DNA from: Erythrobacteraceae bacterium
Lineage (GTDB): Bacteria > Pseudomonadota > Alphaproteobacteria > Sphingomonadales > Sphingomonadaceae
DNA: 64,000 nt
Assembly: GCA_027486035.1 (NCBI GenBank)
Contig: JAIXPX010000033.1
Span: 124,001-188,000 of the forward strand
Direction: 5' to 3'
A model generated the notes under the pieces. That model worked only from the letters and a program-made list of their open reading frames with translations, was not told the DNA's origin and ran no database searches. Position numbers and translations under genes: made by a program. How positions within the stretch are numbered: the first letter of the stretch is position 1; the number at the start of each line of letters is the position of its first letter. This document shows positions 1 to 28,509 of the stretch, piece by piece.

Positions 1-273
1 ATAGGCCTCGGCGGCATTGTCGAACTGGCGGGCCTGGAAATAGGCGAAGGCGAGATCGCTCCACGGGCCGGCATCCGAGACCGAGGCCTCGGCGGCGGCC
101 CGCAGCGCCTCGATCGAACCGGCGCCTTCGGCGGCCGCCTCGGGCGCGGCGGCTTCGGAGCGCTCGTAGATGTTGAAGCCGATCGAGCCTGCCGCGAGCA
201 GCAAGGCGCCTCCCAGCAGAATCCAGCCAGCTTTCGATGTTCCGCCCCCCGGCGGCGTGTCCCGTCTTGTCAT
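1..273 (-). CDS. TPR-repeat membrane protein, N-terminal part
   Basis: The first 91 codons of a gene that runs off the left edge, read by eye from an ATG complementary to 271-273. A polar, proline- and glycine-rich start is followed by one hydrophobic segment (about residues 16-34, WILLGGALLLAAGSIGF). After an Ala/Glu-rich linker comes the beginning of a tetratricopeptide repeat (WSDLAFAYFQARQFDNAAEAY region, residues 71-91). It is therefore probably a single-pass membrane protein with a periplasmic TPR domain. It is divergent from the cytochrome operon at 386, so a role in cytochrome assembly such as CcmH/NrfG-like chaperoning is possible. The visible part does not prove that. Confidence 0.7.
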   Translation of the reverse strand, partial: MTRRDTPPGGGTSKAGWILLGGALLLAAGSIGFNIYERSEAAAPEAAAEGAGSIEALRAAAEASVSDAGPWSDLAFAYFQARQFDNAAEAY

Positions 274-385: not shown

Positions 386-2923
386 TTGGCCGATATATTC
401 AAGGTCGCTATCATTGGATCCGGGCCAGCCGGGCTGAGCGCGGCTGCGCGCGCGGCTGCGCTCGGCATGAGCCACGTGCTGCTCGAGAAGACCGACCATC
501 TCTCCGACACGATCTACAAGTACCAGAAGGGCAAGCATGTCATGGCGACGCCCAGCAATCTGGTGCTGCGCAGCGACATCGATTTCGAGGCGGGCAAGCG
601 CGAGACAATCCTCGGGATCTGGGACGAGCAGATCGAAGGGCACAAGGTCAATGTGAAATACATGGCCGAGGCCAAGGCGATCCGCGGCACCGGCGACCCG
701 ATCCCCGGCTCGGTGCAGCAGATCGTCAGCCGCGCGCGCGACGGCACGAAGAACGTCACGGAGCTCCAGCGTCATGCGCCGCCTTACGCCATCGAGCTGA
801 CCAGCGGCGAGGTGGTGATGGCCGAGAACGTCGTCCTCGCCATCGGCACCCAGGGCAATCCCAACCTGATGCGCTGCCCGGGCGCTGACCTGCCGCACGT
901 GCAGTACCAGCTCGACGACCCCACCGAATATGTCGACGAGCACATCATCATCGTCGGCACGGGCGACGCCGGGATCGAGAACGCGCGCGGCCTTGCCGAG
1001 GATCCGGCGCAGCGCAACACCGTCTCGATCCTCAACCGCGGCACCGAGTTCCCGACCGCCAAGGACGCCAACGTCAAGGCGCTGATGGCCGATCACGAGG
1101 CGGGCAAGCTCACCATCCGCACCGAGAGCGAGACGAAGTCGATCGAGCCGGGCTTCATCACGCTTGCCACCCGCGACGGCGAGCTGCGCATCCCCTGCGA
1201 CCGGATCATCGCCCGCATCGGTTCGGCCCCGCCGCGTGCCTTCGTCGAAGGCTGCGGCATCGAGTTCTCGAGCGAGGACCGCAGCGCCTTCCCCAAGCTT
1301 TCCCCGGTGTTCGAAAGCACCGCGCCCGGCATCTTCGTGATCGGCGCGCTGGCGGGCTATCCGCTGATCAAGCACTGCATGAACCAGGGCCATGACGTCA
1401 TCGAGTTCATCGGCGGCAACACCTCGCTGAAGCCCGCCGACGAGCCGATCATCGCGGCGAAGTTCGCCGGATTGCCGGGCAACCGCTCGACCGAGGAATG
1501 GCTCGAGTTCCTGCGCGCCAACGTCTCGATCCTGAACGGCATGAACCCGCTCCAGATGCGCGAGTTCATGCTCGATTCCGAGGCGCGGTTCTATGGCCCC
1601 GGCGAGGTGATCTTCGAGCGCAACGCGCCCGGCTCCTCGCTGTTCGGGATCGCCAGCGGCTCGGTCGCGGTCGAGGTCAATCCGGCCGATCCCTCGATCA
1701 CCATCCCGATCGAGGCCGGCTCGATCTTCGGCGAGGTCGGCCTCATCTCGGGTCGCCGCCGCGGGGCGACGATCCGCGCTGCCGAGGACACGGTGGTGGT
1801 CGAGATCTCGCGCCTCGCGGCGCTCAAGCTGCAATCGCAGGTGCCCAGCGCCAAGAAGGCCATCGAGCGCATCTCGATCGAGCGGCAATTGCTCCAGATG
1901 TTCGGCTCGGGCCTCAAGCGCGAGGACGTGGCGCCGCTGGTCGAGGCCGCGCAGGTGCAGGAAAAGCGCGCCGGCGAGGTGATCGTGCAGGAAGGCGCCG
2001 ACGACAAGGACGTCTATATCGTCCGGCGCGGCTCGATGATCGTCGAGAAGCAGATAGGCGATCGTCCCGTTTTCCTGTCCTACCTGCCCGCCGGTTCCTA
2101 TTTCGGCGAAATGGCCGCGATCGACGGCTCGGCCCGCACCGCCAGCGTCAAGGCGGCGATCAAGTCCGAGGTGATCCGCCTGCCGGGAGAGGGATTCCTC
2201 GCGCTGCTCGACAGCAATCCGGCGCTGCGCGAGAAGGCCATGCGGGACATGGCCAATCGCCGCGCCACCACCGCCTTCATCGAGAGCCGCAAGGACGAGT
2301 TCGCGGGCGCGGTCGATCTCTATTCGCAGACCGCCCAGTTCCTAGTCGACAACGGCATCGGCGAGGCGACCGACGTGCTGCTGATCGACGAGAAGCTGTG
2401 CATCGGCTGCGACAATTGCGAGAAGGCCTGCGCTGACAGCCATGACGGCCTCTCGCGCCTCGACCGCGAGGCAGGCAAGACCTACGCCCACCTCCATGTG
2501 CCGACCTCGTGCCGGCACTGCGAGCACCCGCATTGCATGGCCGATTGCCCGCCCAACGCGATCAAGCGCGGGCCGGATGGGGAGGTGTTCATCGATGACA
2601 CCTGCATCGGCTGCGGCAACTGCCAGCGCAATTGCCCCTATGGCGTGATCCGGATGGACGCCAAGCCGCCCAAGAAGCCGAGCCTGCTCGAGTGGATGCT
2701 GCTGGGCAAGGGCCCGGGGCCCGGCGAGGCCTCCTACGCCTGGCGCAAGAAGGCGGCCGAGAAGGAAGGCGGGCAGAAGGCCAAGCAGGCGATCAAGTGC
2801 GACATGTGCTCTGGCATCGACGGCGGCCCTGCCTGCGTGCGCGCCTGCCCGACCGGCGCGGCGATCCGTGTCAGCCCGGACAAGTTCCTGACCTTCACCA
2901 AGCTTGCCGAGGAAACGCAGTAG
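386..2923 (+). CDS. Flavin reductase, twin cNMP-binding domain and four-cluster ferredoxin fusion
   Basis: An 845-residue, apparently cytoplasmic redox protein. Residues 1-330 are a thioredoxin-reductase-like FAD/NAD(P) module with GSGPAG near residue 11 and GTGDAG near residue 190. Residues about 385-500 and 515-625 are two cyclic-nucleotide-binding domains. Both keep the phosphate-cassette Glu and Arg (FGEVGLI...RRGAT and FGEMAAI...RTAS). Residues about 665-835 carry four cysteine clusters of the HybA/DmsB type (CIGCDNCEKAC, CRHCEHPHCMADC, CIGCGNCQRNC and a CDMC...CVRAC group), enough for four [4Fe-4S] centres. The start must be TTG386: an in-frame TAG ends at 385 and the next ATG would remove the FAD motif. 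It is the first gene of a four-gene operon. Inferred role: moving electrons between NAD(P)H and a membrane partner under cNMP control. Confidence 0.85.
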   Translation: MADIFKVAIIGSGPAGLSAAARAAALGMSHVLLEKTDHLSDTIYKYQKGKHVMATPSNLVLRSDIDFEAGKRETILGIWDEQIEGHKVNVKYMAEAKAIRGTGDPIPGSVQQIVSRARDGTKNVTELQRHAPPYAIELTSGEVVMAENVVLAIGTQGNPNLMRCPGADLPHVQYQLDDPTEYVDEHIIIVGTGDAGIENARGLAEDPAQRNTVSILNRGTEFPTAKDANVKALMADHEAGKLTIRTESETKSIEPGFITLATRDGELRIPCDRIIARIGSAPPRAFVEGCGIEFSSEDRSAFPKLSPVFESTAPGIFVIGALAGYPLIKHCMNQGHDVIEFIGGNTSLKPADEPIIAAKFAGLPGNRSTEEWLEFLRANVSILNGMNPLQMREFMLDSEARFYGPGEVIFERNAPGSSLFGIASGSVAVEVNPADPSITIPIEAGSIFGEVGLISGRRRGATIRAAEDTVVVEISRLAALKLQSQVPSAKKAIERISIERQLLQMFGSGLKREDVAPLVEAAQVQEKRAGEVIVQEGADDKDVYIVRRGSMIVEKQIGDRPVFLSYLPAGSYFGEMAAIDGSARTASVKAAIKSEVIRLPGEGFLALLDSNPALREKAMRDMANRRATTAFIESRKDEFAGAVDLYSQTAQFLVDNGIGEATDVLLIDEKLCIGCDNCEKACADSHDGLSRLDREAGKTYAHLHVPTSCRHCEHPHCMADCPPNAIKRGPDGEVFIDDTCIGCGNCQRNCPYGVIRMDAKPPKKPSLLEWMLLGKGPGPGEASYAWRKKAAEKEGGQKAKQAIKCDMCSGIDGGPACVRACPTGAAIRVSPDKFLTFTKLAEETQ

Positions 2924-3798
2924 TGGCGGGCAAGGCACAGGCAGGAGGCGCGAAGAGCCGCTTCAAGCAAGACGAGAAACGGCGCGATTCCGATCACGTC
3001 AGCTTTCTGAAGCATCGCGGCTTCCGCTGGCTCTGGATCGCGCTCGGGCTCAGCCTTGCCACCATCGCCGGCTATCTGCTGATCGACCAGCAGCCCCGGC
3101 CCAACGGTGGCACATGGTACGGCTATACGCTCGGTACCATCGGCTTCGGCCTCATCATCTGGCTTTCGCTGCTGGGCGTAAGGAAGCGGCGCATCACGAC
3201 CGGCGCCTGGAGCCTCAAGGCCTGGACCTCGGCCCATGTCTATCTCGGCCTCTCGCTGGTGGTGATCGGCACGCTTCACACCGGTTTCCAGATCGGCTGG
3301 AACGTCCACACCCTCGCCTATGTGCTGATGCTGCTGGTGATCGCGACCGGGATCTACGGCGTGATCGTCTATGCGACCTTGCCCCAGAGCCTCTCGGCCA
3401 ACCGCAAGGCGATGACCCGGGCGCAGATGCTCGATGCGCTCACCGCCATCGACCGCCAGCTCGAAAGCGCGGCCCAGCCGCTCGCGCGGGCGGAAGCCGA
3501 TCTCGTCATTGCCGCGCTTGGCCAGGACGTCTTCGGCGGCGGGGCGCTGGCGCGGCTGACGGGAAGCTATCCCGACTGCGCGACCGCCCGCGCATGCACC
3601 GGCATCAGCCGTGGCAGCGAGGCGGAAACCCGGGTCGTCGCCCTGCTGGAGAAGCGCAGCGAACAGCTTGCCCAGATCCGCGGCGCGCTGCGCATCCGCG
3701 CCGCTCTCGAAGTGTGGCTGTTCGTCCACATCCCCCTCACCATCGCCCTGATCGCCGCGCTCACCGCGCATGTGATCAGCGTGTTCTACTACTGGTGA
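2923..3798 (+). CDS. Multi-His integral membrane protein, cytochrome b-like
   Basis: A 291-residue membrane protein with about five hydrophobic segments (roughly residues 35-53, 65-85, 100-122, 128-150 and 265-290). Histidines lie in or next to the membrane segments (SAHVYLG, GTLHTGF, NVHTLAY, FVHIPL, LTAHVIS), as expected for a di-heme b-type quinone or ferric-reductase-like subunit. Heme binding is inferred from these residues. A soluble loop of about 110 residues lies between the fourth and fifth segments. The GTG start overlaps the previous stop by one base (TAGTG). Longer upstream reading only runs through the ferredoxin gene in another frame. Position and coupling suggest it is the membrane partner of the flavin/ferredoxin protein. 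Confidence 0.75.
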   Translation: MAGKAQAGGAKSRFKQDEKRRDSDHVSFLKHRGFRWLWIALGLSLATIAGYLLIDQQPRPNGGTWYGYTLGTIGFGLIIWLSLLGVRKRRITTGAWSLKAWTSAHVYLGLSLVVIGTLHTGFQIGWNVHTLAYVLMLLVIATGIYGVIVYATLPQSLSANRKAMTRAQMLDALTAIDRQLESAAQPLARAEADLVIAALGQDVFGGGALARLTGSYPDCATARACTGISRGSEAETRVVALLEKRSEQLAQIRGALRIRAALEVWLFVHIPLTIALIAALTAHVISVFYYW

Positions 3799-3808
3799 GG
3801 GGGCAGCG

Positions 3809-5611
3809 ATGGCATTCCTGATCCGCACCATCGATTTCACCGCCGCCGGGCGCGAGATCGTGCGTGACCGCGTGCTCGACCAGGCGAGCCTCGCCATCGG
3901 CCGCGCCGCCGAGAACGACATCCACCTGCCCGATCTTGCGGTCGAGCAGCACCATGCCCGGATCGACGTGCAGGGGGACGGGACGCTCAAGGTCACCTCG
4001 CTCGGAACGCTGGGCTTCGCGCTCGACGGGCGGGCGGTCGCGGACGGGACCATCGATCCGCGCACGGGGGGCGAGATCGCCTTGGGCGCGGCGCGGCTTG
4101 CGGTCGCGCGCGAAAGCGACGGCACGATCGCCATCACCATCCGTCAGGTCGCGCCCGAGGAAGGCAAGGGCGACGCGCTGCGCGGCTTCCAGCTCGCCAG
4201 CGTGTTGCCATCGAAGCGCGCGATGAGCTGGGTCTTCGCCGCCGCGATCCTTGTCATGCTGCTGATGGTCCCCGTCACCAGCCACCTGCTGCGTACCCCC
4301 GCCAAGCCCGATCCGACCGGCAAGACCGAGGGCGCGGTGCTGCTGGACAGCGCATGGTCGGCAGGTGAGCTGTCCCTGAAGCACCACAGCCTCGAGGACA
4401 ATTGCGAGAGCTGCCACGTCGCCGCCTTCGAGAGCGTCAAGGACGAGACCTGCCTCTCCTGCCACAAGGGCATCGGCGAGCACGCTGACCGGCCCCGCCT
4501 CGCCACAGGGATGCCCGCGCTTTCGGCTGGCGATGCGATCCAGTGGAAAATCGCCGAGGGGCTCGGCAAGGAAGGGCCACTCGGATGCGTTTCGTGCCAC
4601 TCCGAGCACGAGGGGCCGGTGCGGCAGAAAGCGGGCGGCGAGGCTTTCTGCTCGGACTGCCACAAGGACCTGCCCGCGCGGCTCAAGGACACCCAGCTCA
4701 CCGGGGCGCACGATTTCGGCAAGGCGCACCCGCAGTTCCGCCCCGCCTATTACGCCAGCTTCGGAGCGGCCAAGCCGGTGCGCGCGGCGGCGGGGGCAAA
4801 GCCGGTCGAGCGGTCGGGCCTCAAGTTCCCGCACGATGTGCACATGAACGCCCGCGGCGGCGCGGCGCGTATGGCGGTGAGCCTCAAGCAATATGGCAAG
4901 CCGCTCGAGTGCAAGGATTGCCACAGCCCTTCGCCCGACAAGGCTGGTTTCAAGCCGGTCCAGATGGAACAGGCCTGCGAGAGCTGCCACAGCCTTGCTG
5001 CGGGCGGGATCGGCAAGCTGCGCCATGGCAGCCTCAAGCATCTGGCTGAAGACCTTGCTCGGATCAGCACGGGTCCGCGCAGCTTCGACTCTGGGCGCGA
5101 GCGTCCGGGGCGGCTCGGCAGCGCTTCGCCCTACCGCGCCGATTTCGGCCGGCCGGTGCGCGCCTATATCGGCATTTCCAACGCGCTTTCGGCGGGCGGC
5201 GTGTGCACCGAATGCCACCTGCCCACCACCGGACCGACCGGTCAGGCCGACCTCATGCCGGTGAACCTGCCCGACCGCTTCCTCACCAGCGGCTATTTCA
5301 ACCACGAGGCGCACAAGAAGGAGGAATGCACCGATTGCCACGCGGCCGACACGTCCAAGGCGGCGAGCGATCTGCTGATCCCCGATCTCAAGAGCTGCCG
5401 CGATTGTCACCTCGGGGCGACAGCGGTGAAGACCAAGAAGATCGTGCCTTCCGACTGCGCGATGTGCCACGCCTACCACGTGCCCGCCGGGCAGTGGTCG
5501 CCCAAGGGGCCGGAGCCGCACTACGTTCCCAAACCCCTCGCGCCGCCTAAGTACAAACCCGAAGCCACCAAAACAGTTGTTGCAGCAATTAGAGGTTCCG
5601 CTAGCAAATAG
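3809..5611 (+). CDS. FHA-domain, membrane-anchored decaheme cytochrome c
   Basis: A 600-residue protein joining cytoplasmic signalling to periplasmic redox. Residues about 20-105 form an FHA fold (LAIGRAAENDIHLPD, EQHHARIDV). One membrane helix follows at about 133-155 (MSWVFAAAILVMLLMVPV). The rest carries ten CXXCH heme sites: CESCH, CLSCH, CVSCH, CSDCH, CKDCH, CESCH, CTECH, CTDCH, CRDCH and CAMCH. With the FHA domain inside, the hemes are exported. In typical FHA domains a serine precedes the RxHA motif and contacts phosphothreonine. Here that position reads Glu (AVEQHHA), so classical phosphopeptide binding may be altered. The start is ATG3809 behind GAGGGGGCAG. It is third in the operon and probably takes electrons from the membrane protein upstream. 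Confidence 0.88.
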   Translation: MAFLIRTIDFTAAGREIVRDRVLDQASLAIGRAAENDIHLPDLAVEQHHARIDVQGDGTLKVTSLGTLGFALDGRAVADGTIDPRTGGEIALGAARLAVARESDGTIAITIRQVAPEEGKGDALRGFQLASVLPSKRAMSWVFAAAILVMLLMVPVTSHLLRTPAKPDPTGKTEGAVLLDSAWSAGELSLKHHSLEDNCESCHVAAFESVKDETCLSCHKGIGEHADRPRLATGMPALSAGDAIQWKIAEGLGKEGPLGCVSCHSEHEGPVRQKAGGEAFCSDCHKDLPARLKDTQLTGAHDFGKAHPQFRPAYYASFGAAKPVRAAAGAKPVERSGLKFPHDVHMNARGGAARMAVSLKQYGKPLECKDCHSPSPDKAGFKPVQMEQACESCHSLAAGGIGKLRHGSLKHLAEDLARISTGPRSFDSGRERPGRLGSASPYRADFGRPVRAYIGISNALSAGGVCTECHLPTTGPTGQADLMPVNLPDRFLTSGYFNHEAHKKEECTDCHAADTSKAASDLLIPDLKSCRDCHLGATAVKTKKIVPSDCAMCHAYHVPAGQWSPKGPEPHYVPKPLAPPKYKPEATKTVVAAIRGSASK

Positions 5612-5613
5612 GA

Positions 5614-6498
5614 ATGGGCTGGGTCGCCGCATCCTCTGGGGCCGTGCTGATCGCACAGATGACCGACATTCACGTCGGCTTTGCCCCTGATGAAAAGCCC
5701 GAAGAGCTCAATCTCACCCGCTTTCGCGCCACCCTCACGCGGCTGATCGATGGCCCGAACCGGCCCGATATGCTGGTGCTTTCGGGCGACATCACCGATC
5801 ACGGCGATGCCGAGAGTTTCGCAAAAACGGCAGCCTTTCTGAAGGATTGCCCGTTTCCGATCATCCCGATGGTGGGCAATCACGATAGCCGCGCAGGCCT
5901 GCTTGGCGCTTTCCCGCAGGTCGCGCCGGCCGAGGGCGGCTTCCTGCACTATGTCGTGGAGGCGCCGCTCGGCCTCAGGATCATCTGCCTCGATACGCTC
6001 GAGGATGGCCGCCACGGCGGCGCCTTCTGCGACGCGCGGGCGCGCTGGCTGGCCGATCGCCTCGCCGAAGCGCCCGACCAGCCGACGTTGATTTTCATGC
6101 ATCACCCGCCGGTGGTGGCCGGGATCGACTGGATGGACCCCGCGCCCGTGGAGGAATGGATCGTCCGCCTGCGCGGTGTGCTGGAGGGGCAGGCCCAGGT
6201 GCTGGCGATCCATTGCGGGCATCTTCATCGCCAGATCAACGCACGCTTCGCAGGCATCCCGCTCGCGGTGACACCCTCGGTCGCACCGCTGGTGGCGATG
6301 GATTTGAACCCGATCGACATGCACAGGCCTGACGACCGCGAGCTCATCACCACCGAGCCGCCGACCTACGCGCTCCACCGCTGGGACGGGCAGAGCCTCG
6401 TCTCGCATTACGAACGGGTCGGCGACTGGCAGGTGCTGGCCCGCTACAACGCGGCGCTCCAGCCGATGATCGAAGGCATGTTCGCCGAGCGGGGGTAG
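5614..6498 (+). CDS. Calcineurin-like phosphoesterase, CpdA-type
   Basis: A 294-residue class III cyclic-nucleotide-phosphodiesterase-like enzyme. The metal-binding motifs appear in order: DIHVG, GDITDHGD, GNHD, HHPP and GHLHRQI. GNHD and GHxH together are typical of CpdA/Rv0805 enzymes that hydrolyse cAMP or related phosphodiesters. There is no signal peptide, so it is cytoplasmic. The ATG lies two bases after the stop of the FHA cytochrome gene, placing it in the same transcription unit as a protein with two cyclic-nucleotide-binding domains. The likely job is to clear the ligand of that protein. Another phosphodiester substrate cannot be excluded. Confidence 0.8.
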   Translation: MGWVAASSGAVLIAQMTDIHVGFAPDEKPEELNLTRFRATLTRLIDGPNRPDMLVLSGDITDHGDAESFAKTAAFLKDCPFPIIPMVGNHDSRAGLLGAFPQVAPAEGGFLHYVVEAPLGLRIICLDTLEDGRHGGAFCDARARWLADRLAEAPDQPTLIFMHHPPVVAGIDWMDPAPVEEWIVRLRGVLEGQAQVLAIHCGHLHRQINARFAGIPLAVTPSVAPLVAMDLNPIDMHRPDDRELITTEPPTYALHRWDGQSLVSHYERVGDWQVLARYNAALQPMIEGMFAERG

Positions 6499-6567
6499 CT
6501 CGCCCGACCCGGGCTCGACCCGAGGCCCCGCTGCCTTACCGATCCATGCGCTCGCAGCGAGAAGCTG

Positions 6568-6590
6568 GGTCCCGGGTCAAGCCCGGGACC
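6568..6590. terminator. Hairpin between convergent cytochrome operons
   Basis: A perfect 9-bp stem GGTCCCGGG / CCCGGGACC with a five-base loop TCAAG, between the stop of the phosphoesterase gene (6498) and the stop of the large decaheme gene (6604). No T-run follows on either strand. It is a candidate bidirectional transcript end or a REP-like element. Confidence 0.5.
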
Positions 6591-6603
6591 AGGGTGAATT
6601 GGA

Positions 6604-9600
6604 CTACCTCAGTCCCACCCAGCGCTTCATGTCGACCTCGTCGCTCACCTTCCACGGCGCGCCCGAGCGGGTCATGAACAGCCGCTCCATCTCGTCGCGC
6701 GTGAAGGGCCGCGAGCCCAAGCGCCCGAACACCGCGATCTGCCCGCCGGTCTCGTCCACCGCCCGGTCGCGGTCGAGCCCCTTTGACAGGGCAATCGCAG
6801 GCGTCGGGGTTTTCGCCCAGGCGATCAGCTCGGGCATCGGAGCCGGCGAGAAGCCGTAGAAGTTGCGCTGGCTTTCCGGGCTGGTGAGTTGCAGCACCTT
6901 CATCCCGTTCCGCCCGTCGGCCACGTAAGCGAAGAGCGAGGCGTTGGTGGTGCCGACGATCACGTCCTCGGCATCGTTCAGTGCCCCGCCAAGCGTCACC
7001 TTCTGGTAAACCTTGGGCGCGCGCGGGTTGGTGACGTTGAGGATGACGAGCCCGTCCTGCTTGGCCGCAACATAGGCATAGGTGCGCGCGATGTAGAGGC
7101 GCCGCGCGTCGGCCAGCGGCACGGTGGCCTCGGGAACGGCGACAGGATTGCGCAAGCTGGTGATGTCGAACAGCTTCACACCCTCCGCATCTGTGACCCA
7201 CAGGTAGCGGAACTGCACTGCAGAGGCACGCGCGTCGCGAAGCTCGCGCACCGCAGCGAGCCTCGGCGTGCCGGGATCGGAGAGATCCACCACCACGAGG
7301 CCGCGATTGGCGGTGATATAGGCGATCTCGCCCGCCAGCACGATATGCCGCGCGCCGTTCAGCACGCCGCCCGGGTTCCAGGCGGTCGAGCCATCGGCAT
7401 AGGCCTTCCGCCGGAGCTGGTTGTTGCGATATTCGCCATCCGCCAGCGTGTCGATGTTGACGAGGATCAGCCCCTCCACCGCGTCGGTGACGGCGGCGTA
7501 GCTGTAGATCGGCTTGAAGGCCTGTTCCTGGTTCATCTCGCGCATCGCCTGGGTATTGCGGGTCGGCGCGATCGGCTGGTTGGTGGCAAGCGCCATGCAG
7601 GTGGCGTTGGCGGTCTTGACGTTGGTATCATGGCCGAGCTTCGAGAACGGCCCCTTGAGGATCTTTTCCGAGGTGCCCTTGTTGGCGATCGAGGCAACGT
7701 CATAGGCGGTGAAGCCGCCCTTGCCGTGAGCGACGAACATGTATTCGCCGCGCAGTTGCAGACAGCCCACGCGGTCCGAGGTGCCTTCGTGGACGTTGAC
7801 GAATTCCTCGAGCGGATGGGTCTCGCCCGACAGCTTCTTGTCGAAGGCCTTGCCTCTCACCCAGTTCTTCAGCTCGCGTCCGTTCTGATCGACATGGAGC
7901 TTCCAGTAATCGGGATAGGCATAGCGCTGGAGATAGGAACCGATAACGGCCTGGGGCTCGTCATATTCGGTCACGCGGGTCGCCTGAAAGCCGCCCTCGA
8001 GACCCGTCCAGGCATTCAGCCCCACGAAGTTGACGTAATTCGTCCCCATCAGCAGAAGCTGCGCCATGATCGCGTTGTTGTCCTCCTTCACCGAGAGATG
8101 GCAATCGGTGCAGGTCTTGGTTTCCGTCAGGCGCACGGTGTGCGGGAAGTGCGGCGCGAAGGCCTGAGAGGAAAAGCCGATCGCGCTGATCGGCGGCTGC
8201 TGCACGTAGATGCGCTCGCGGTTGATGTTGGTGGACGAGAGCACCAGCGCCGAGGACGAGCGCACCGGGGCGACCTGGTTGCCCTTGGTCGTCTGGTGCT
8301 TGCCGAGCTGGAACATCTCGTCGCGCGCGACCTGCGGGTTGTAGGTCGCAAAGTTTCTCGTCTCGCCGCCTTCATAGCGGTGGATCTTGGTCTTCCAGTT
8401 GGCCTCGATCGGCAGGTGGCAGCCGCCGCACGAAGTCGTCCACGAAAGGTGGCAGGTGAAGCACGCCATCTCCGGCTCGCGGTGCGCGCGGTCGCCGGCG
8501 GATATGCCCGTGCCGAACTCGAAATTGCCGGTCTCCGCTCCGTAGCGGCTCATCAACTTGGCGCGGGCGGCCTTGGCGTTGAAGGCAGGGGTGGCGGGAT
8601 CGACCGAGTCCCTGACGAGGCTCATCGTCCATTCGAGGCTCGGGTCGACCAGCGAGCGCTGGACGAGCTTGCGCCTGCCGTCCGGCCCCTCGAGCCATTC
8701 GAAGCGGCGCTTCCCGTCGGGATTGCGCAGGAGGCTGAGGTCATGCCCCTCGGGCGGAGCAGCCGGGCCACTGGTGCGCAAGGTCGGATAGGCATCGGCC
8801 GTGCCGTGGCAGTCCTTGCAGGTGATCTCGATCGCGTTCGCCACCTCGCCGTAGATGAGGCCGTTGCCGTGGCTGTCCTGCTCGAAGTGGCAATCGGCGC
8901 ACTGCATCCCCTTCTCGGCATGGATATCCATCATGTGGACCGCCTTGCCCGGATTGACGCCGGGCGGCACGAACTTGCCCTCGCCCTTCTTGCGCCACTT
9001 CTCCGGATCGTCGGGATCGACGATCTTGCCCTCCGCATCGAGCAGGTTGCCCTCGCGGTCGCGCTTGAAGATCGCGCGGAAGTTCCAGCCGTGGCCGTGG
9101 TAATCGGCGAACTGGGTGTCCTTCAGCGTCGGGTTCAGGTCATAGACGTTGCGCAGGAAGTCGAGGTCCGACCACTTGCCCTTGGGCGCGGCGCCTTCCG
9201 GGTTGCGATCGTTGGCGGCGCGCACCTCGGCGGCGGTCGGATATTTCTGCTCCTTGGGCCACATTGCGGGCGCGTCGGACTCGTAGTCCCACATGGTGTA
9301 GCCGAGGAAGGAGTTCAGGAAGATGTTGGGCTGGTGCATGTGGCAGTTCATGCACTGGCTGGTGGGGATCGCCCGGGTGAAGACATGGCTGAGGGGGTGG
9401 CCCTTCTCCTTCACCTTCCCGTCGGGGGTCTTGAGCGCGCCGTCATCGCTGTGAGCGCCGTGGCTGCCCTCGTCCCTGTGTCCGGGCTGCTTGAGCGCGC
9501 CGTGGTCGCTCGCCTTCCCGCCGTGCTCGCCCCCGCCCGCCGCGTGCTCGAGCTTCGCGGCGATCGTCGGGTCCGAGCTGATCGACTGCCCGTCGCGCCC

Positions 9601-10695
9601 GTATTTGGCATAGATCAGCGAATGGCGCGGCTCGCGGTCGTTGGCATAGACCACGTGGCAGGACGCGCAGCCCGAATGGCGGTAATCGCCCGGCTGGTCA
9701 TTCGTCCCCATGAACCAGGTGAAGGGATCGTTGAGGCGGGTCTTGTGGATGTTGAGCGCCGGGATCGCCACCCGAAGCCCGGTGCCGGGGCCGCGGTTCG
9801 ACTGCTTGAGGTCGGGTCGGCCCGGCTCCTCGAGGCGCTGGATCGCGCCGCTCGGGTTGGGAAGGCCGATCTCGGGGAACTGCGAGTTGATGGTCCGCCC
9901 GCCGCGCTCGAACACGCGAAACACGTCGCCCGGCGGGATCACGTGCCAGGTCGGCAGCGGATACATCTCGGCCAGCACCCCGCGCGCGACCTGATCATCG
10001 GACAGCTTGCCGCCCGGGCCCGCCCCCGGCGTGGTCAGCTTCGCCGCCTGGCCGTTGCGGGTATAGGCCTCGCCGAGGAGGTAGTTCTTGAAGGGCAGGA
10101 TCCCGTTGTTGTAGCTCGCCCCGCCCCACAGCATCGCGCCCGTCGCCATGATCGAGCGTTCCGCCGCCTCGACAGACTGGATGTGACACGCGCCGCAGGC
10201 ATCGCGCGCGACGCGGTAATCTGAGGGGTTGATGAACTTCACGAATTCCGGCGATTCCTGATTGAGCAGCGCATAGGAGCGCTTGGGGTTCGCCGAGGAA
10301 GGGAAGTGCCACGAATTCGGATACTTCGGCAGGACGTGCGCCTTGTCGCGCGCGGCAACGTAGTCGGGGTGATCGTGCGGAAGCTCGGAATTGCCGCGCA
10401 CCCGCGCATTGCCGCCGTGGCAATCGGTGCAGCCCAGCCGCACCGCGGGCGAGACGTGCATGGTCGGCGCGTCGGTCTTGACGTGGCAGGTGTTGCAGCC
10501 CTCGGACTTGGCGTCCATCTCCGCGACCGATTGGCGCTGCGGCGCGGGCGGCGCGATGACGAGGCTGTAGTCGCGCTTGACCGGTTTCTCCTTGTCCGAG
10601 GCGAGCGGCGAATCCGCAAACAGCGTCACGGCAAGCACCATGGCCGCGACAAAAAGCGCGAGGTGGCGGGCGAGGGATAGGCCGATCATAGGCAT
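6604..10695 (-). CDS. Exported decaheme cytochrome c with LVIVD-repeat domain
   Basis: A 1363-residue protein with a signal peptide (hydrophobic stretch about residues 9-28) and no lipobox. Ten CXXCH sites are seen: CNTCH, CTDCH, CGACH, CASCH, CMNCH, CADCH, CKDCH, CFTCH, CGGCH and CTDCH. A His/Gly/Asp-rich linker near residues 385-440 contains two similar SDxGALK blocks. The last third lacks hemes and carries LVIVD-type repeats (RGLVVVDLSDPGTP, EGVKLFDITSLRNP, DGLVILNVTNPRAP, NGMKVLQLTSPES), expected to form a beta-propeller often found on surface proteins. The ATG overlaps the barrel gene's stop (TGATG); a second ATG lies two codons on. It is last in a four-gene operon with an outer-membrane barrel, so it may be the periplasmic or surface-exposed partner of that barrel. 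Confidence 0.87.
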   Translation of the reverse strand: MPMIGLSLARHLALFVAAMVLAVTLFADSPLASDKEKPVKRDYSLVIAPPAPQRQSVAEMDAKSEGCNTCHVKTDAPTMHVSPAVRLGCTDCHGGNARVRGNSELPHDHPDYVAARDKAHVLPKYPNSWHFPSSANPKRSYALLNQESPEFVKFINPSDYRVARDACGACHIQSVEAAERSIMATGAMLWGGASYNNGILPFKNYLLGEAYTRNGQAAKLTTPGAGPGGKLSDDQVARGVLAEMYPLPTWHVIPPGDVFRVFERGGRTINSQFPEIGLPNPSGAIQRLEEPGRPDLKQSNRGPGTGLRVAIPALNIHKTRLNDPFTWFMGTNDQPGDYRHSGCASCHVVYANDREPRHSLIYAKYGRDGQSISSDPTIAAKLEHAAGGGEHGGKASDHGALKQPGHRDEGSHGAHSDDGALKTPDGKVKEKGHPLSHVFTRAIPTSQCMNCHMHQPNIFLNSFLGYTMWDYESDAPAMWPKEQKYPTAAEVRAANDRNPEGAAPKGKWSDLDFLRNVYDLNPTLKDTQFADYHGHGWNFRAIFKRDREGNLLDAEGKIVDPDDPEKWRKKGEGKFVPPGVNPGKAVHMMDIHAEKGMQCADCHFEQDSHGNGLIYGEVANAIEITCKDCHGTADAYPTLRTSGPAAPPEGHDLSLLRNPDGKRRFEWLEGPDGRRKLVQRSLVDPSLEWTMSLVRDSVDPATPAFNAKAARAKLMSRYGAETGNFEFGTGISAGDRAHREPEMACFTCHLSWTTSCGGCHLPIEANWKTKIHRYEGGETRNFATYNPQVARDEMFQLGKHQTTKGNQVAPVRSSSALVLSSTNINRERIYVQQPPISAIGFSSQAFAPHFPHTVRLTETKTCTDCHLSVKEDNNAIMAQLLLMGTNYVNFVGLNAWTGLEGGFQATRVTEYDEPQAVIGSYLQRYAYPDYWKLHVDQNGRELKNWVRGKAFDKKLSGETHPLEEFVNVHEGTSDRVGCLQLRGEYMFVAHGKGGFTAYDVASIANKGTSEKILKGPFSKLGHDTNVKTANATCMALATNQPIAPTRNTQAMREMNQEQAFKPIYSYAAVTDAVEGLILVNIDTLADGEYRNNQLRRKAYADGSTAWNPGGVLNGARHIVLAGEIAYITANRGLVVVDLSDPGTPRLAAVRELRDARASAVQFRYLWVTDAEGVKLFDITSLRNPVAVPEATVPLADARRLYIARTYAYVAAKQDGLVILNVTNPRAPKVYQKVTLGGALNDAEDVIVGTTNASLFAYVADGRNGMKVLQLTSPESQRNFYGFSPAPMPELIAWAKTPTPAIALSKGLDRDRAVDETGGQIAVFGRLGSRPFTRDEMERLFMTRSGAPWKVSDEVDMKRWVGLR

Positions 10696-12545
10696 CAGTA
10701 GGTCAGCACCACGTTGGCAAGCACCGAAACGAATTCCCTGCCGCCGCCGCGCGCGGTGAACAGGTCACGAAAACCGTCGCCCGCAAGCAGGGTTGCAGCA
10801 GAAAGGCGGAAGACGAGGTTCTGGTTGGCATTGGGTCGCCAGATCGCCGAGGCCGACAGGTCGTAGCCGATCTCTTTGGGGATCGAGCCCTCGTTCCTGA
10901 GCACCTGCAGGGTCGCGGTATCCTCGAACGACAGGTGGTTGGCATTGGCCGAGAGGCGGAATTCGGGAGTCAGGTCGAAATCACCGCCCACCCCGAACAG
11001 GATCAGGCCCGGATTGTTGAAGTTCGACTGCCCCTGCTCCTTGGAGGAGCGCAAGGAATTGAGGATGCCGTTCCTGCCGTTGACGCTGACCGCGCGCCCG
11101 CCGCCGGCGAAGGGGATCGTCTGGCGAATCCAGTAGGAGGTGTCGGCACCGGCAAAGACTGGGTTCTCGAAGATCGCGTCGAAGCCGGTCTCGCGGTTGT
11201 CGTAGGGGTTGCTGTCGCCGCTGGCATAGGCCGCCGAGAGCCGGAAGCGCATCCAGTCGCGATCATAGCTCGCCTCGAGCGCGGCGAACTGCGCGCTGAT
11301 GTCTGCCGGGCGATCGGTGAAGAAGGAGTTTCGGTCCTCGCCCAGCGCCCAGTAGAAGCTCCCTGTGAGATTCACCCGCCCCACGCGCCCGTCGAGGTTG
11401 TAGCCCAGATAGAGGACATCGTAGTCGCGGCCTCTCAAGCTCCCGACCAAGGCAGGGCGCACCGGGAAGCCGTTGTCATCGATCTCGATGTCATTGCCCT
11501 CGCGGTTGCGGTTGTAGACCGCAGTGATCTGGCTGGTGAGCGCCGGGATCAGGAAATCCTGACGGTAGGCATTGGCGACAAAGACGAGGTCGTCGCGCGG
11601 GGCCTGCACCACGGAATTGAGCCCCGAATTGGTATCCTTCTCGAGCCGCCAGAACGCCCCAAGGTTGAACTGGAAGCGGTTGTTGTCGCGCGACCCGAAC
11701 AGGCGCAGGCCAAGCTGCTGGTCATTGAACAGGAAACCGCGGAAGTCCGACTGGAACGGCTGGATGCCCGCGCGCACCGAGATGAAGTCGAACCGGTCGT
11801 TGTCGAACTGGCCGAGGTGGTAATCGACGAAAGCTTCCTGGACCCCGAGGAAGTGATCGAGCCGCTCGTTGCCCCGCGAGGGCTCCACGAACAGCACCCG
11901 CCGCTCGGGCACGGTGACGTAGTTGACGTTGTAGGCCAGCGTTACGCGATATTCGATCGAAGGCGGCTTGAAGGTGGTCGAGCCCTTGAGCAGCGCGAAG
12001 CCGGCGATGAAGGTCTGGCTGAAGACCTGGCTGAAATCGTTGCCGAACACGTCGTTGCGGTCCGGGTCCTGGGTGGTCTGGACACCGACGGGGATCGGGA
12101 AAGTGCGCGGTTCATAGACAGAATCGCTGATCAGGTTGGCGACGAAGAACCAGTCGTCCTCCTTGATCGGCAGCCACGGCACCTTGGCGCGGTCGATCGG
12201 GCGGTCGCCCTTCAGCGTGTTCTGGTGATAGGGATCAAAGAGGTTCTCCTTCACCAGCCCGAGGCTCTGGATCAGCCGCCAGCGGTCGGGGATCGGGACC
12301 TGTTCGGTGGCAAAGGCCTCTGGCGGCGGCGCCCGCACCGCGCCCTGGTTCCTCTGCTCGATTTTCTCGGGCAGGGGGGCGGTGTATCCGGGACGCTCGC
12401 GGCCCTCGAGGAGCTGCGGATCGACCGGCGGCGCGTCCTGCTCCCACCCTGACGGCTTTGCCTCGCCGGGGGGCGTGATGGGGGGCTGCGTTTCGGCGGG
12501 CGGGCTCGCCTGGAGCAGCAGCAGGGCGGGGAGGAGCAGTCCCAT
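10695..12545 (-). CDS. Outer-membrane beta-barrel protein of the cytochrome operon
   Basis: A 616-residue protein with a short signal sequence (MGLLLPALLLLQAS) and a Pro-rich linker (to about residue 80). The remainder is dominated by alternating amphipathic strands rich in Asn, Asp, Phe and Tyr, and ends in ...VLANVVLTY. A terminal aromatic residue is the usual assembly signal for outer-membrane barrels. The length would allow a large barrel of 20 or more strands, in the size range of alginate-export-type and MtrB-type barrels. No specific family is recognised with confidence. The ATG directly follows the previous stop (TAGATG) and the stop overlaps the next ATG. Lying between cytochrome genes, it is a candidate sheath of a porin-cytochrome conduit. 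Confidence 0.75.
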   Translation of the reverse strand: MGLLLPALLLLQASPPAETQPPITPPGEAKPSGWEQDAPPVDPQLLEGRERPGYTAPLPEKIEQRNQGAVRAPPPEAFATEQVPIPDRWRLIQSLGLVKENLFDPYHQNTLKGDRPIDRAKVPWLPIKEDDWFFVANLISDSVYEPRTFPIPVGVQTTQDPDRNDVFGNDFSQVFSQTFIAGFALLKGSTTFKPPSIEYRVTLAYNVNYVTVPERRVLFVEPSRGNERLDHFLGVQEAFVDYHLGQFDNDRFDFISVRAGIQPFQSDFRGFLFNDQQLGLRLFGSRDNNRFQFNLGAFWRLEKDTNSGLNSVVQAPRDDLVFVANAYRQDFLIPALTSQITAVYNRNREGNDIEIDDNGFPVRPALVGSLRGRDYDVLYLGYNLDGRVGRVNLTGSFYWALGEDRNSFFTDRPADISAQFAALEASYDRDWMRFRLSAAYASGDSNPYDNRETGFDAIFENPVFAGADTSYWIRQTIPFAGGGRAVSVNGRNGILNSLRSSKEQGQSNFNNPGLILFGVGGDFDLTPEFRLSANANHLSFEDTATLQVLRNEGSIPKEIGYDLSASAIWRPNANQNLVFRLSAATLLAGDGFRDLFTARGGGREFVSVLANVVLTY

Positions 12546-14501
12546 CTACAGCCCCTCGCACACGTTCTGCGCGGTGGTGTCGAGGAACGGCGCGAAGGGG
12601 CACCCGACATAGCGCAGCCGCACCTGACGGCTGCCGACCTGCACCAGAATGCGGTCGGCCCGCATGTCTCTGGGCGCATTGCCCAGCCCGCCTCCGGTGC
12701 GCGCCGCGCCGTTGTTGAGGCCGAGGAAGCTGATCATGTCATCCTGGTCGATCCCGTCACCCGAGACGCCGATCGCGCCGACCAGCGTGGTGCCGCGGTA
12801 GATCGGCACGGAACCGGGGAAGATCTGGATGCCGTTGGCGAGCCGCGGATTGCCGCCCGCCACCTGCGGCAGGCTGGTGCAGGCGCGCGGTGTGTCCGCC
12901 GCGCTGGCGCCGGTGACGAAGCCGAGGTGCTGCGCCAGGTTGCCGATCACCAGCGCCGACTGGAGCCCGGTCGAGAAGGGGCTGAACTGCTGGATCGGCC
13001 GCGATAGCGGGCCATTGGGCTGACCCACCTCACCATCGGGGAAATAGGGCCGGGCGAGGTTGCCAACGGAACGATTGGCGATCCCGAACGCGCCCCCCAA
13101 CGCGCCGGGATCGCCGAGGAAGGTGCGCGTCCGAGTGACGAACTGCGGCACCTCCCCGTTGGCTGCATTGAGGTCGGCAGCGGCGAAGCGTCCGGAGAAG
13201 AAGTTGGCGGTCCGCGCCTTCTGCAAGCTCACGTCGATGCCGAAGATCGGCGCATCGGGAGAGCGCACAATGCCGAGCACTTGTCCGCGCGTGTCGACGA
13301 GGCTGATCGTCACCTGCGCACGGCTGTCGAGAGGCTGGCGGATCTGCGCCCGCGCGCGGCTCATGACAGTGAAGGCTTCCTCGAGGATGGCGCGCGCCTC
13401 GGCAGCGGTGAGCGGCGTCGCGACGTCGCCCGCGTCGGTCGCGGCGCGCACCGGATAGCGGTTCACCCCGGCACCATTGGTGAGCACGAAGGCATCGCGG
13501 TTGGCAAACTCGGCCGAGGTCGAGGCGCGCACGCCCGAAGCCTCGGTGCCGTAGGCTGCGCCCGAAAGCAGCGCCGTTCCGGTGTAATAGCCCGCGACCG
13601 GCACCAGCGCGCCTGCGGTGCCCGCGAAGCTCGCGCCGGCGACATTGCCGATCTGCGTGTATTCGACATCGGTGTAGCGCAGCGCCGTACCATCGGCGCT
13701 GATGCGATTGGCGCGAATGGTCTCGGGGGCGGCAAAGCCGACCGTGCCGGCCAGCGCGATCGCTTCGTCGAGGTCGTTGTCCCGGTCGAGCACGTTGGGA
13801 TCGAAGCTGTAGGCCCCGTCGGCAATCACCCCGATGCCGCCCACCACGACGCCGTTCTTGTAGAGCGGAAAGCCGCCCGGATCAGCGGCAAGGCCGAGCG
13901 GCGAGCGCTTGGGGCCGATGAAGCCATCGGTCGCGCGCGCGGCGAGGTCGGAACAGGGCAGCTGGCTGAACTGGACCCCGAACAGCGGCCCGCTCTCCAG
14001 CCCCGCCGTGCTGGGTGCGGGAGGAAAATGCTCCTGCACGATGAAGCTCGCGGTGCGGCTCGAAAAGGCGTTGCCGCCGCTCGAGAGATAGGCGCCGGTG
14101 ATCGCCTTGGCGATGGCTGCGCCTGCACTCGGGATGGTGAGCCCCTGAGCATCTCGGCTGGTGCCGTCAGGGGCTGCGGGAATGCGCGCGGTTGCCGCGG
14201 CACCAGGCATGGCGAAGACGGCCAGCACATTGCCGACGCGGTCGGTAACGGCAATCGTCGCCGACGCCCCCCGCGCCCGGGCCTCGGCGGCGGCCTGGGC
14301 GATGATCGTGCCCACCTCAGTGCCCGAAAGGCTCTCGGCTGCAGGCACGGAAAAGACTTGCCCTGCGGGCGTCGGCGCGGGCGTGGCGGTGGGAGCAGGC
14401 GTCCCGCCGCTCGTGCCCGAGCTGCTGCCCCCGCCCCCGCAGGAGGCAAGCACCAGCGCGCTCGCAGCAATCCAGCCGGTCCTGATCCCCCCGAACCGCA
14501 T
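12546..14501 (-). CDS. Lipoprotein with two GlcG/HbpS-like domains
   Basis: A 651-residue lipoprotein. The signal peptide ends in a lipobox (ALVLASC, Cys about residue 20), followed by a Gly/Ser- and Thr/Pro-rich linker. The first GlcG/HbpS (DUF336-like) domain starts near residue 55 with IIAQAAAEARARGASATIAVTDRVGNVLAVF. A second, larger copy starts near residue 370 with ARAILEEAFTVMSRARAQI and continues through VTISLVDTRGQVLGIVRSPDAP to LVGAIGVSGDGIDQDD. HbpS-type proteins bind heme or act as extracellular redox sensors. This protein could therefore handle heme or a small organic ligand at the cell surface. It starts two bases after the pentaheme cytochrome stop and is followed at once by the barrel gene. 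Membrane side (inner or outer) is not evident. Confidence 0.75.
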   Translation of the reverse strand: MRFGGIRTGWIAASALVLASCGGGGSSSGTSGGTPAPTATPAPTPAGQVFSVPAAESLSGTEVGTIIAQAAAEARARGASATIAVTDRVGNVLAVFAMPGAAATARIPAAPDGTSRDAQGLTIPSAGAAIAKAITGAYLSSGGNAFSSRTASFIVQEHFPPAPSTAGLESGPLFGVQFSQLPCSDLAARATDGFIGPKRSPLGLAADPGGFPLYKNGVVVGGIGVIADGAYSFDPNVLDRDNDLDEAIALAGTVGFAAPETIRANRISADGTALRYTDVEYTQIGNVAGASFAGTAGALVPVAGYYTGTALLSGAAYGTEASGVRASTSAEFANRDAFVLTNGAGVNRYPVRAATDAGDVATPLTAAEARAILEEAFTVMSRARAQIRQPLDSRAQVTISLVDTRGQVLGIVRSPDAPIFGIDVSLQKARTANFFSGRFAAADLNAANGEVPQFVTRTRTFLGDPGALGGAFGIANRSVGNLARPYFPDGEVGQPNGPLSRPIQQFSPFSTGLQSALVIGNLAQHLGFVTGASAADTPRACTSLPQVAGGNPRLANGIQIFPGSVPIYRGTTLVGAIGVSGDGIDQDDMISFLGLNNGAARTGGGLGNAPRDMRADRILVQVGSRQVRLRYVGCPFAPFLDTTAQNVCEGL

Positions 14502-14503
14502 CG

Positions 14504-15901
14504 CTACTGCAGCCTGCCGATCGCGGTGCTGGCGGACTTCAAAGCCGCGCGGAAGTCGGCCGGACGGAAGACGTTGGGCTCCTCGACCGCCTTGTAGGCC
14601 CGGGCGATGTCGCCGCGGATGCCGGTCGCCGCGCCCCGCGTCACGCGGCCCTCACGGACCAGCGCATTGAGCAGCGTGTCGACCGCCATCACCGCCTGCA
14701 CCGATCCGGCGTAGTCGGTGAAGCGCGGACTTGTCGCCTCCCCGGAGATGATCGCGATCACCTTGAACGCGTCGGCATCTGCATAGGCACGACCCGACAA
14801 CGAATCCGCAAGCACCCCTGCACGAACCGACAAGGCCTGCGCAGCAGCGCGGGTCTCGGCCGCGCCCTGCCCCATCGCCTTGTGGAAGTCGCGTGCGGCA
14901 GCCTGAAAAGCGCTTGCCTCGCCCGGCACCAGCGCGGCCGCGACCGCCTGGAGCATGATGATGTTCTCGTCGTTGAAGGGCGGGTTACCGAAAGGGATGG
15001 GCCGTGCAGGATTGGTCTCGAAGGTCAGCTTCCTTTGCGGGCCGTCGGTGATCGGGCGGTGGCAGGAGTGGCAATCGAGGAAATAGAACTGCGGGAAGGC
15101 GCCTTCGTAGGCGAATTTCGGCTGAGCAAAGAGGCTCGTCGAGCGCCGCACTGCCTCGGCCTGGCCCACTGCCCACACCCGCACCGAGTTATCAGTGCCC
15201 TTGCGCGCAGCATAGTCCGCGTCGGCATTGTGGTGCTGCTGGAGTGCGCTGAACAGATCGAGCTCGAAGGCAATGCGCGGATGCCCCGCTGCCATCATCG
15301 CATGGGTGACGAACTGTCCGGGCTTGCTCGACCCGTAATGGCAATCGAGGCACACGCCGGCGCGCGACTTGGGGTTGTCGAGCGGGGTGAGCCCCGCCGC
15401 GACATTCGAGGCATGGGTGGCGGGGAGCGCATAATGCTCCGCGAGCCAGGTGCCGCCGGACGCGCCGTGGCAGCTCTCGCAGCCGACGCCGTCGGTGAGC
15501 GTGAACTTCGCCCCGCGCTGGCCGGCGGGGGCGTTGGTGGCATGACAGCCCAGGCACGCCGGCGCGCTCTGCGCATTGCCGAGCCCGAGGCTCGCGGCGA
15601 TCTGCTGCCCGCGCCGACTGCCGAGCACGGCATAGGCCCGGCTATGCGCGCCCGATGATGAGGAAGGTTCCTGCCAGGTCGCGATCTCGTCCTGGCGTAC
15701 TACCGCGCCATTGCCCTCGGCACGGCCGTGGCAGGTCGATCCCGCGCAGCTCGCCACGCCTTCGAAGGTGCCGCCGCCGATCGCGCCCGATGCCGGGTAG
15801 AGTGCGGCCAGCGCAAGCACAGCAAGCACGCGCAAGCCAAGGCTGCCCAGCACCCGCTTCGCGATAACGCCAGAGATGACATCCGCCCAAACTAGCCTCA
15901 T
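14504..15901 (-). CDS. Exported multiheme cytochrome c, c554-like
   Basis: A 465-residue protein from the ATG complementary to 15899-15901. This start was preferred over an in-frame upstream one at 15961 because it lies just behind a G-rich ribosome binding site (complement of 15907-15913) and gives a better signal region (hydrophobic LGLRVLAVLALAALYPASGA near residues 19-38). Four CXXCH sites (CLGCH, CESCH, CLDCH, CHSCH) are joined by one CX4CH site (CAGSTCH), making five hemes. The spacing and the HYALPATHAS, AGHPRIAFE and HAMMAAGHP stretches resemble cytochrome c554-type electron carriers. It is the first gene of the minus-strand operon and probably a soluble or anchored periplasmic shuttle feeding the barrel-associated decaheme protein. 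Confidence 0.83.
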   Translation of the reverse strand: MRLVWADVISGVIAKRVLGSLGLRVLAVLALAALYPASGAIGGGTFEGVASCAGSTCHGRAEGNGAVVRQDEIATWQEPSSSSGAHSRAYAVLGSRRGQQIAASLGLGNAQSAPACLGCHATNAPAGQRGAKFTLTDGVGCESCHGASGGTWLAEHYALPATHASNVAAGLTPLDNPKSRAGVCLDCHYGSSKPGQFVTHAMMAAGHPRIAFELDLFSALQQHHNADADYAARKGTDNSVRVWAVGQAEAVRRSTSLFAQPKFAYEGAFPQFYFLDCHSCHRPITDGPQRKLTFETNPARPIPFGNPPFNDENIIMLQAVAAALVPGEASAFQAAARDFHKAMGQGAAETRAAAQALSVRAGVLADSLSGRAYADADAFKVIAIISGEATSPRFTDYAGSVQAVMAVDTLLNALVREGRVTRGAATGIRGDIARAYKAVEEPNVFRPADFRAALKSASTAIGRLQ

Positions 15902-16228: not shown

Positions 16229-20983
<4,755 letters not shown>

Positions 20984-21027
20984 GGTCGCTCTTTCAAATG
21001 TGGGCGCCAAAAAATTGGTTCGGGCCA

Positions 21028-28380: not shown

Positions 28381-28509
28381 ATTATTCCATTCTGGACATG
28401 CCGCGATGGATCACAAATGCCCCGCCCTAACCCTATCATTACTTTGGAAGAAGTGAATCTTTGAGATTGGCTTCGCCGCACTTCGTTCTCATGAGCCGTT
28501 CATCGTGAC
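28381..28509. other. Short non-coding stretch upstream of the CHAT operon
   Basis: This segment lies between the open CHAT frame and the first insertion-sequence remnant. It probably contains the operon promoter and an insertion boundary. No convincing promoter or terminal inverted repeat was recognised. Confidence 0.3.

Follow-up and report, generated by a model that had tools for sequence, protein, structure and literature searches.

Within a 64,000-nucleotide stretch of an Erythrobacteraceae genome (contig JAIXPX010000033.1, positions 124,001 to 188,000; henceforth the window), eight genes lying at 386-15901 form two converging operons, A-B-C-D on the plus strand facing H-G-F-E on the minus strand, whose products are predicted to move electrons across the inner membrane. 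Open reading frames, Pfam and motif scans place every gene where the initial annotation of this DNA had put it. Gene A (386..2923, +) encodes a predicted cytoplasmic protein of 845 residues in which Pfam matches and conserved residues mark a YpdA-like FAD/NAD(P) oxidoreductase, tandem cyclic-nucleotide-binding (cNMP) domains and four [4Fe-4S] clusters. B (2923..3798, +; 291 residues) is a predicted inner-membrane di-haem b-type cytochrome with two W-x3-H-x13-H motifs, and C (3809..5611, +; 600 residues) carries an FHA-like N-terminus, one transmembrane helix and a predicted periplasmic decahaem cytochrome (10 CxxCH). D (5614..6498, +; 294 residues) is a metallophosphoesterase (PF00149) resembling class III cyclic-nucleotide phosphodiesterases of the SpdA type. 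On the opposite strand lie H (14504..15901, -), a predicted periplasmic c554-type cytochrome (PF13435); G (12546..14501, -; 651 residues), a lipoprotein with a lipobox and HbpS-like haem-binding-type domains (PF03928); F (10695..12545, -; 616 residues), modelled as an 18-strand outer-membrane barrel of AlgE-type fold; and E (6604..10695, -; 1363 residues), which joins a decahaem cytochrome domain (10 CxxCH) to a C-terminal propeller of LVIVD repeats. The stop codon of F overlaps the start of E. H had been called a pentahaem protein, a name that holds if its single CX4CH is counted beside its four CxxCH and fails by CxxCH alone; likewise G was rightly called a lipoprotein, its HbpS-like domains having gone unnamed. 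Since the haem-motif counts are kept in orthologues (10 in 61/61 for C, 4+1 in 67/67 for H and 10 in 77/78 for E), the parts are not chance products, and these counts together with co-inheritance rule out an origin by chance or artefact.

A scan of GTDB species genomes returned 474 relatives of E, of which we kept 80, found at 68-90% identity; those with genus names are sphingomonads. Complete frames recovered from these 80 loci number 78 for E, 73 for F, 70 for G, 67 for H, 65 for D, 61 each for B and C, and 58 for A. A is present at least in part in 60 loci. Among the 20 loci without it, 10 end early or show only part of B-D. The remaining 10, two of them likewise with less than 3 kb behind E, were followed by a whole-genome search, which located A elsewhere in 10/10 cases, at 64-79% identity over the matched stretches. 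Of 196 genomes sampled evenly across the order, 39 had strong matches to E, and precisely these 39 had strong matches to C. The chance of 39 matching 39 at random is 5e-42, or 3e-15 with 16/63 genera as units, figures that allow only in part for kinship. E and C are at most 15 kb apart in 21 of the 39, 18-32 kb apart in two, 0.4-1.6 Mb apart on the same contig in six, and on different contigs in 10. These shared occurrences, along with the A genes found elsewhere in 10/10 loci lacking one beside E, support the view, consistent with the suggestion in the initial annotation, that the eight genes form one unit inherited together. Thus about one fifth of the order sample (39/196) has the system, with both operons together in every strong case. 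The order consists mostly of aerobic bacteria, and the system probably earns its keep in them as a set.

Beyond the order, a class sample of 289 Alphaproteobacteria held 20 genomes with E (one a fragment) and 26 with full-length A, all 20 falling within the 26, and a phylum sample of 299 gave five strong E matches, all in this class; one database relative of E is named Granulosicoccaceae, which we take to be gammaproteobacterial. Rows dropped before counting were 5 of 25 genomes in the class E scan (weak partial matches), 9 of 14 in the phylum E scan, 1 of 40 in the order E scan, 4 of 43 in the order C scan and 8 of 31 in the pentahaem search described below; from the 267 of the class A scan, 26 were kept as full-length A (long A), another 18 counted as short-A homologues, and all others matched single domains. 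Mobility may explain the patchy spread: 13 plasmid records hold most of E, the complete gene set is carried by the conjugative megaplasmid pMSHV of Sphingobium herbicidovorans, and the 32 kb examined of pMC4, a conjugative megaplasmid of Sphingopyxis indica, show E-F-G-H without A-D (loci L188 and L189).

The initial annotation recognised no described system with this combination of parts. It overlooked PCC4, a system predicted by He et al. 2017 (PMC5566968); as described there, PCC4 has counterparts of C, H, B and the iron-sulphur half of A. In that description PCC4 comprises a porin, 4-, 5- and 10-haem cytochromes and other redox genes, with an inner-membrane protein bearing two WX3HX13H motifs and SGXXG and an iron-sulphur gene of PF13247; the main text of the paper does not mention cyclic nucleotides (PMC5566968). 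Our match to PCC4 is by this description and not by the authors' sequences. Locus L148 fits it, with 4, 5 and 10 haems, a membrane protein, an iron-sulphur protein and another redox gene, the barrel nature of its 'porin' being assumed from the description; L149 fits likewise, but shows no tetrahaem gene in the available stretch. Against profiles from such PCC4-like loci, hhalign found B homologous to the membrane protein (probability 98.1), C to the decahaem protein (99.6, over 202 columns) and H, which bears the extra CX4CH, to the tetrahaem protein (98.8), while the C-terminal half of A is homologous to a PCC4-like cNMP/Fe-S protein at 30-33% identity. As in PCC4, there is a decahaem protein (C), a tetrahaem-type one (H) and a membrane protein, B, with both WX3HX13H motifs and an SGXXG-type site (TGIYG in the window, SGIFG in the consensus); directly upstream of B stands the PF13247 gene, A, whose Fer4_11 match scores 39.4 bits against a cut-off of 26.2.

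The two systems differ at their predicted outer end, where our locus has E (10 haems and a propeller), F (AlgE type) and G in place of the pentahaem protein and porin of PCC4; they differ also in the YpdA-like NAD(P)H domain fused into A, where PCC4 has a separate FNR-like protein, and in the FHA-like N-terminus of C. By hhalign with shallow profiles, E showed no homology to the pentahaem protein beyond 21 columns and F none to a five-sequence profile of the PCC4-type porin; no counterpart of G was seen in PCC4-like loci, and the window's own genome (89.9% complete) has no match to the PCC4-type pentahaem protein. In the open-licence papers searched we recognised no description of this gene set. 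Judged by its gene content and sequence kinship, the locus is a sister or variant of predicted PCC4 and not a wholly new system.

How the two outer ends, or heads, are distributed bears on their history. Among the 26 long-A genomes of the class sample, 20 have E and five of the other six have a PCC4-type pentahaem protein at 58% identity or more (G060, the source of the query, G105, G258, G052 and G120). In the sixth, G025, G lies at the contig end and E may be cut off. Short-A genomes have the pentahaem protein in 17 of 18 cases, at 35-60% identity (none was found in G124), and identities of 57-68% among strong matches other than the query indicate that it is well conserved in the PCC4-like branch, just as E is in our system. 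In loci L144 and L145, long A, C and H stand near a pentahaem gene and porin. One genome, G160, has both heads, E-F-G at locus L152 and a pentahaem gene on another contig, and is possibly an intermediate of a head swap. In a quick tree of A (24 rows with the E label), pentahaem rows are scattered among E rows, with four changes, all four forced by well-supported branches; this scatter equals that of shuffled labels (129/500 as low), with no clustering and no sign of a single origin. From the scatter on the tree of A, the distribution of heads among long-A genomes, and L144 and L145, we conclude that one inner-membrane unit has more than once become linked with one or the other of two heads that are not homologous. 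This amounts to a natural experiment, with one inner-membrane module and two unrelated heads, that bears on the evolution and engineering of conduits.

The inner-membrane unit is furnished with the ligands that electron transfer would need. In B, His105, His119, His129, His269 and His283 are invariant in 76/76 aligned sequences; they include the motifs W101/H105/H119 and W265/H269/H283, whose His pairs 105/119 and 269/283 are each 14 apart. A crude hydropathy scan places four helices in B, and a fifth, at about 101-121 and bearing two of the His, is likely. He et al. 2017 liken the WX3HX13H pattern to ferric reductases and to cytochrome b of the bc1 complex (PMC5566968). C keeps its ten haem-motif His and exactly ten further His invariant in 81/81 sequences, enough for ten bis-His haems. 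A has Pyr_redox_2/3 matches, two cNMP_binding domains and a HydN/AegA-like ferredoxin part, with 16 conserved cluster Cys. This make-up lends good support to a predicted path that starts at a cytoplasmic flavo-iron-sulphur protein, crosses the inner membrane and ends at a multihaem cytochrome; joined to cyclic-nucleotide-binding domains, such a path agrees with what had first been proposed.

The initial annotation also named two sensory domains, one for cyclic nucleotides and one of FHA type, and only the former held up. Both phosphate-binding cassettes of the tandem cNMP domains, which align with protein kinase A regulatory subunits, keep their Glu and Arg (E450, R459, E575 and R584) in 83/83 aligned long-A sequences, and we regard the cyclic-nucleotide-binding part of A as a solid prediction. 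The FHA domain of C scores 26.4 bits against a cut-off of 20.7 and keeps G31, R32 and G74 in 80/81 and H49 in 70/81 sequences. Phosphothreonine-binding FHA domains use Ser of their binding loops. No conserved Ser occurs at columns 46-50 of C in the 81 aligned sequences, so FHA sensing by C is doubtful, and we rejected phospho-sensing as its role. Two neighbours could set the level of the nucleotide. D is nearest to SpdA-type phosphodiesterases yet below their cut-offs (126.7/400 and 76.6/225 bits), and a gene for a CHASE2 plus adenylate/guanylate cyclase protein (22722..24719, -; PF05226, PF00211), a possible local source of cyclic nucleotide, is found some 7 kb upstream of H and shares its strand. 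Among the 67 loci with complete H, 33 have upstream of it a member of a gene cluster whose representative is a CHASE2-cyclase (one on the opposite strand), these genes being mostly 27-30% identical to the window's own cyclase.

Of the three head proteins, E is the best conserved; indeed, no other protein of the system for which we compared loci of other orders reaches its mean identity (E 58.5% over 16 loci, F 52.1 over 13, G 49.8 over 12, A 47.6 over 15, B 42.7 over 9, H 36.9 over 8 and C 29.1 over 12). Passive extracellular wires tend to drift in sequence, and the conservation of E suggests a specific active protein instead. Its cytochrome domain spans approximately residues 40-965 (a boundary drawn by eye) behind a signal-like N-terminal helix, and 77/78 orthologues lack a lipobox pattern. 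The closest non-orthologues of E are ExtM-like cytochromes of about 800 residues, similar to its haem part only. In six loci encoding them, nothing adjacent resembles either F or the PCC4-type porin (unrelated barrels were not searched for), and in two of the six another multihaem gene adjoins. Proteins of about 760-860 residues with 10 or 12 CxxCH and no F-like or PCC4-porin-like neighbour occur in L103, L171, L172 and L182-L186; against a cut-off of 800, ExtM scores of 169-238 bits were obtained for the three that were scanned, and a five-haem gene adjoins in L186. In L187 (G646, same order, another family) two adjacent multihaem proteins with 11 and 10 CxxCH are both partly E-like.

F is without Cys and without a Pfam match at E <=0.1. 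Its structure model has 18 long strands and resembles the alginate exporter AlgE (PDB 3rbh, 5d5d; 14% identity) and OprD/Occ channels; a crude strand count giving 28 peaks was set aside in favour of this model. Of 53 F-relative sequences, five match PF13372 (Alginate_exp) at E <=1, the best at 25.3 bits against a cut-off of 25.2. MtrB is absent among the best 50 structure matches listed for F, which by itself excludes nothing. A Pro-rich N-terminal segment (residues 49-131, 83 residues) is conserved, and a 72-residue loop (442-513) is very conserved, more so than the strands; both are largely of low model confidence. Sequence-profile searches found no relatives of solved structure for E or F. 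G matches PF03928 at 1.7e-21 in three stretches and has no CxxCH; 66/70 of its orthologues have the lipobox pattern.

The reading we prefer, to which we assign a probability of about 0.5, is a cyclic-nucleotide-switched, NAD(P)H-linked electron-export chain, sister to PCC4, with E as a terminal redox protein acting on a specific substrate. In the direction of flow and order of partners that we propose, NAD(P)H or a ferredoxin-like donor would reduce the FAD of A, from which electrons would reach the two b haems of B by way of A's four [4Fe-4S] clusters. Having crossed the inner membrane, they would enter C with its ten bis-His haems and then pass along those of H into E, the decahaem/propeller protein. 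E would sit in the periplasm or dock on F, an AlgE-type outer-membrane channel matched to E that would pass its substrate or product, while G would serve as a haem-binding-type lipoprotein of the surface or periplasm. The tandem cNMP domains of A would act as the switch for this flow, and in this lineage the neighbouring cyclase and the phosphodiesterase-like D are probably the enzymes that turn it on and off. If true, a second messenger switches transmembrane electron flow directly, at the level of the enzyme, and the locus makes a case for direct cyclic-nucleotide control of an electron-export chain.

The leading alternative is a true porin-cytochrome conduit, in which F and G would keep E exposed, either at the outer membrane or outside it, to deliver electrons to minerals, humics or partner cells. 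It is a real possibility, though well short of probable. PCC4, the nearest described system, was itself proposed as a conduit (PMC5566968), and 18 strands are likewise predicted for ExtB, a barrel from a Geobacter cluster that has been tested by deletion (PMC6148476). The swapping of cytochrome heads on a shared core and the overlap of the F stop with the E start fit a conduit too, and the conserved 83-residue segment and 72-residue loop of the modelled F are what a docking surface might look like. The same model, however, puts F among AlgE/OprD-type barrels, and general barrel geometry suggests that an 18-strand barrel would be too narrow to take in a decahaem protein. The initial annotation was too confident about the barrel, which it likened to those of porin-cytochrome conduits; the finding it had named as fatal to that idea, an ordinary substrate porin, is half borne out by the AlgE/OprD/Occ likeness and 18 strands of F, though the 18 strands predicted for ExtB leave room for a conduit. 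We rank a periplasmic or docked terminal E slightly above a surface conduit because E is the best conserved part, bears no lipobox and has ExtM-like relatives without an F-like or PCC4-porin-like neighbour in six loci (where, as said, only these two barrel types were sought). More tentatively still, the system may be a cyclic-nucleotide-gated extracellular electron-transfer machine of oxygen-respiring alphaproteobacteria, many of them sphingomonads, built from an A-B-C engine and one of two non-homologous heads; multihaem conduits have been studied mostly in anaerobic metal respirers.

Two further schemes are improbable. Electrons could run inward via E-H-C-B from an external donor such as Fe(II) or Mn(II), but reduction of NAD(P)+ by Fe(II) or Mn(II) is uphill, the named hosts are mostly known as heterotrophs, and A is fused to an NAD(P)H-type flavoprotein, with an FNR/NqrF-like one carried by the PCC4-like locus L148. 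He et al. did model PCC3 and PCC4 as inward, and an Erythrobacter Mn(II) oxidiser is among the PCC3 hosts (PMC5566968). Less probable again is an assimilatory iron or haem reductase in which B would play the part of the membrane domain of a ferric reductase, with external iron or haem handled by E, G and F. The ferric-reductase likeness of the W-x3-H-x13-H helices (PMC5566968) and the HbpS-like domains of G would suit it; however, two stations each with a ten-haem protein seem more than such a task would require, and no TonB receptor or siderophore family turned up among the 17 window proteins Pfam-scanned (386-33556 only).

Several observations weigh against the export chain with a terminal E. 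The electron donor to A is assigned from domain type only, and for PCC4 the quinone pool was proposed by He et al. (PMC5566968). In 35 sequences, 12 non-motif His in the cytochrome part of E are invariant, so all ten of its haems may be bis-His, which disfavours an active-site haem. Residues 32-980 of E, modelled without haem, reached a confidence (predicted local distance difference test, pLDDT) of 59.5 and gave 0 Foldseek matches at E <=0.001, and we did not use that model. D has a complete frame in 65 of 80 sphingomonad loci but was not recognised in 26 loci of other families (L141-L166) and would thus be an accessory; the cyclase neighbour, too, is lineage-specific, whereas the conserved cNMP site in every long A examined is not so limited. 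Finally, among the 10 genomes with E and C on different contigs, some cases may be contig breaks, as with G719, where the C gene lies at a contig end.

A ninth gene belongs to the conserved set. X (1..273, -), cut by the window edge, encodes a TPR protein of the CcmH/CycH/NrfG type, apocytochrome-chaperone-like; a full-length relative (L167:17774-18709) matches PF23914 TPR_CcmH_CycH at 55.7 bits against a cut-off of 42, and a member of its gene cluster adjoins A in 57/57 loci with a complete A on the minus strand. In L155 and L156, of another family, A is preceded by a ccmI-type gene for cytochrome c maturation (TIGR03142 over its cut-off in L156; judged by eye in L155). Directly upstream of H, and outside the core, is a gene for a two-partner-secretion (TPS) exoprotein with YDG/MBG domains (16229..21028, -; PF05860). 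It opens a block of CHAT, p241, CHASE2-cyclase, ShlB and TPS-exoprotein genes at 16229-30000, whose G+C content of 0.52-0.59, against about 0.67 around it, suggests separate acquisition. A large-gene cluster occupies the place upstream of H in 17 other loci; its representative, in L050, has a cut N-terminus and no Pfam match, and its TPS nature is presumed. Plasmid pMSHV has an ShlB gene and a 6.3-kb gene at the corresponding place.

Set beside other known systems, the locus shares single features with several. With MtrCAB, PioAB and MtoAB it has in common an inner-membrane entry, a periplasmic multihaem protein and a barrel, but F has 18 strands where MtrB has 28 transmembrane regions according to He et al. 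(PMC5566968). PF11854 (MtrB/PioB) matched neither F, nor 53 scanned relatives of F, nor any protein of the window's own genome; on both counts we rejected an MtrB-type barrel, upholding the initial view that F is not of the Mtr type by sequence. No decahaem protein of the DmsE/MtrA type came over the cut-off among the eight proteins. E resembles ExtM (NF040943, a cytochrome of selenite/tellurite operons) over a two-haem stretch at residues 589-640, but the 56.2 bits scored there are far below the cut-off of 800, and we do not count it as a member. AlgE shares the 18-strand fold of the modelled F, which differs in being only 14% identical and in its long, conserved extra segments; no alginate genes turned up in the families scanned beside F. 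The Geobacter Omb-Oma-Omc and Ext conduits, compared with F by description, likewise unite a barrel, a periplasmic multihaem cytochrome and a lipoprotein, which in ExtHIJKL is a non-cytochrome one (PMC6148476); our locus differs from them in that its lipoprotein, G, is HbpS-like and not a c-type cytochrome.

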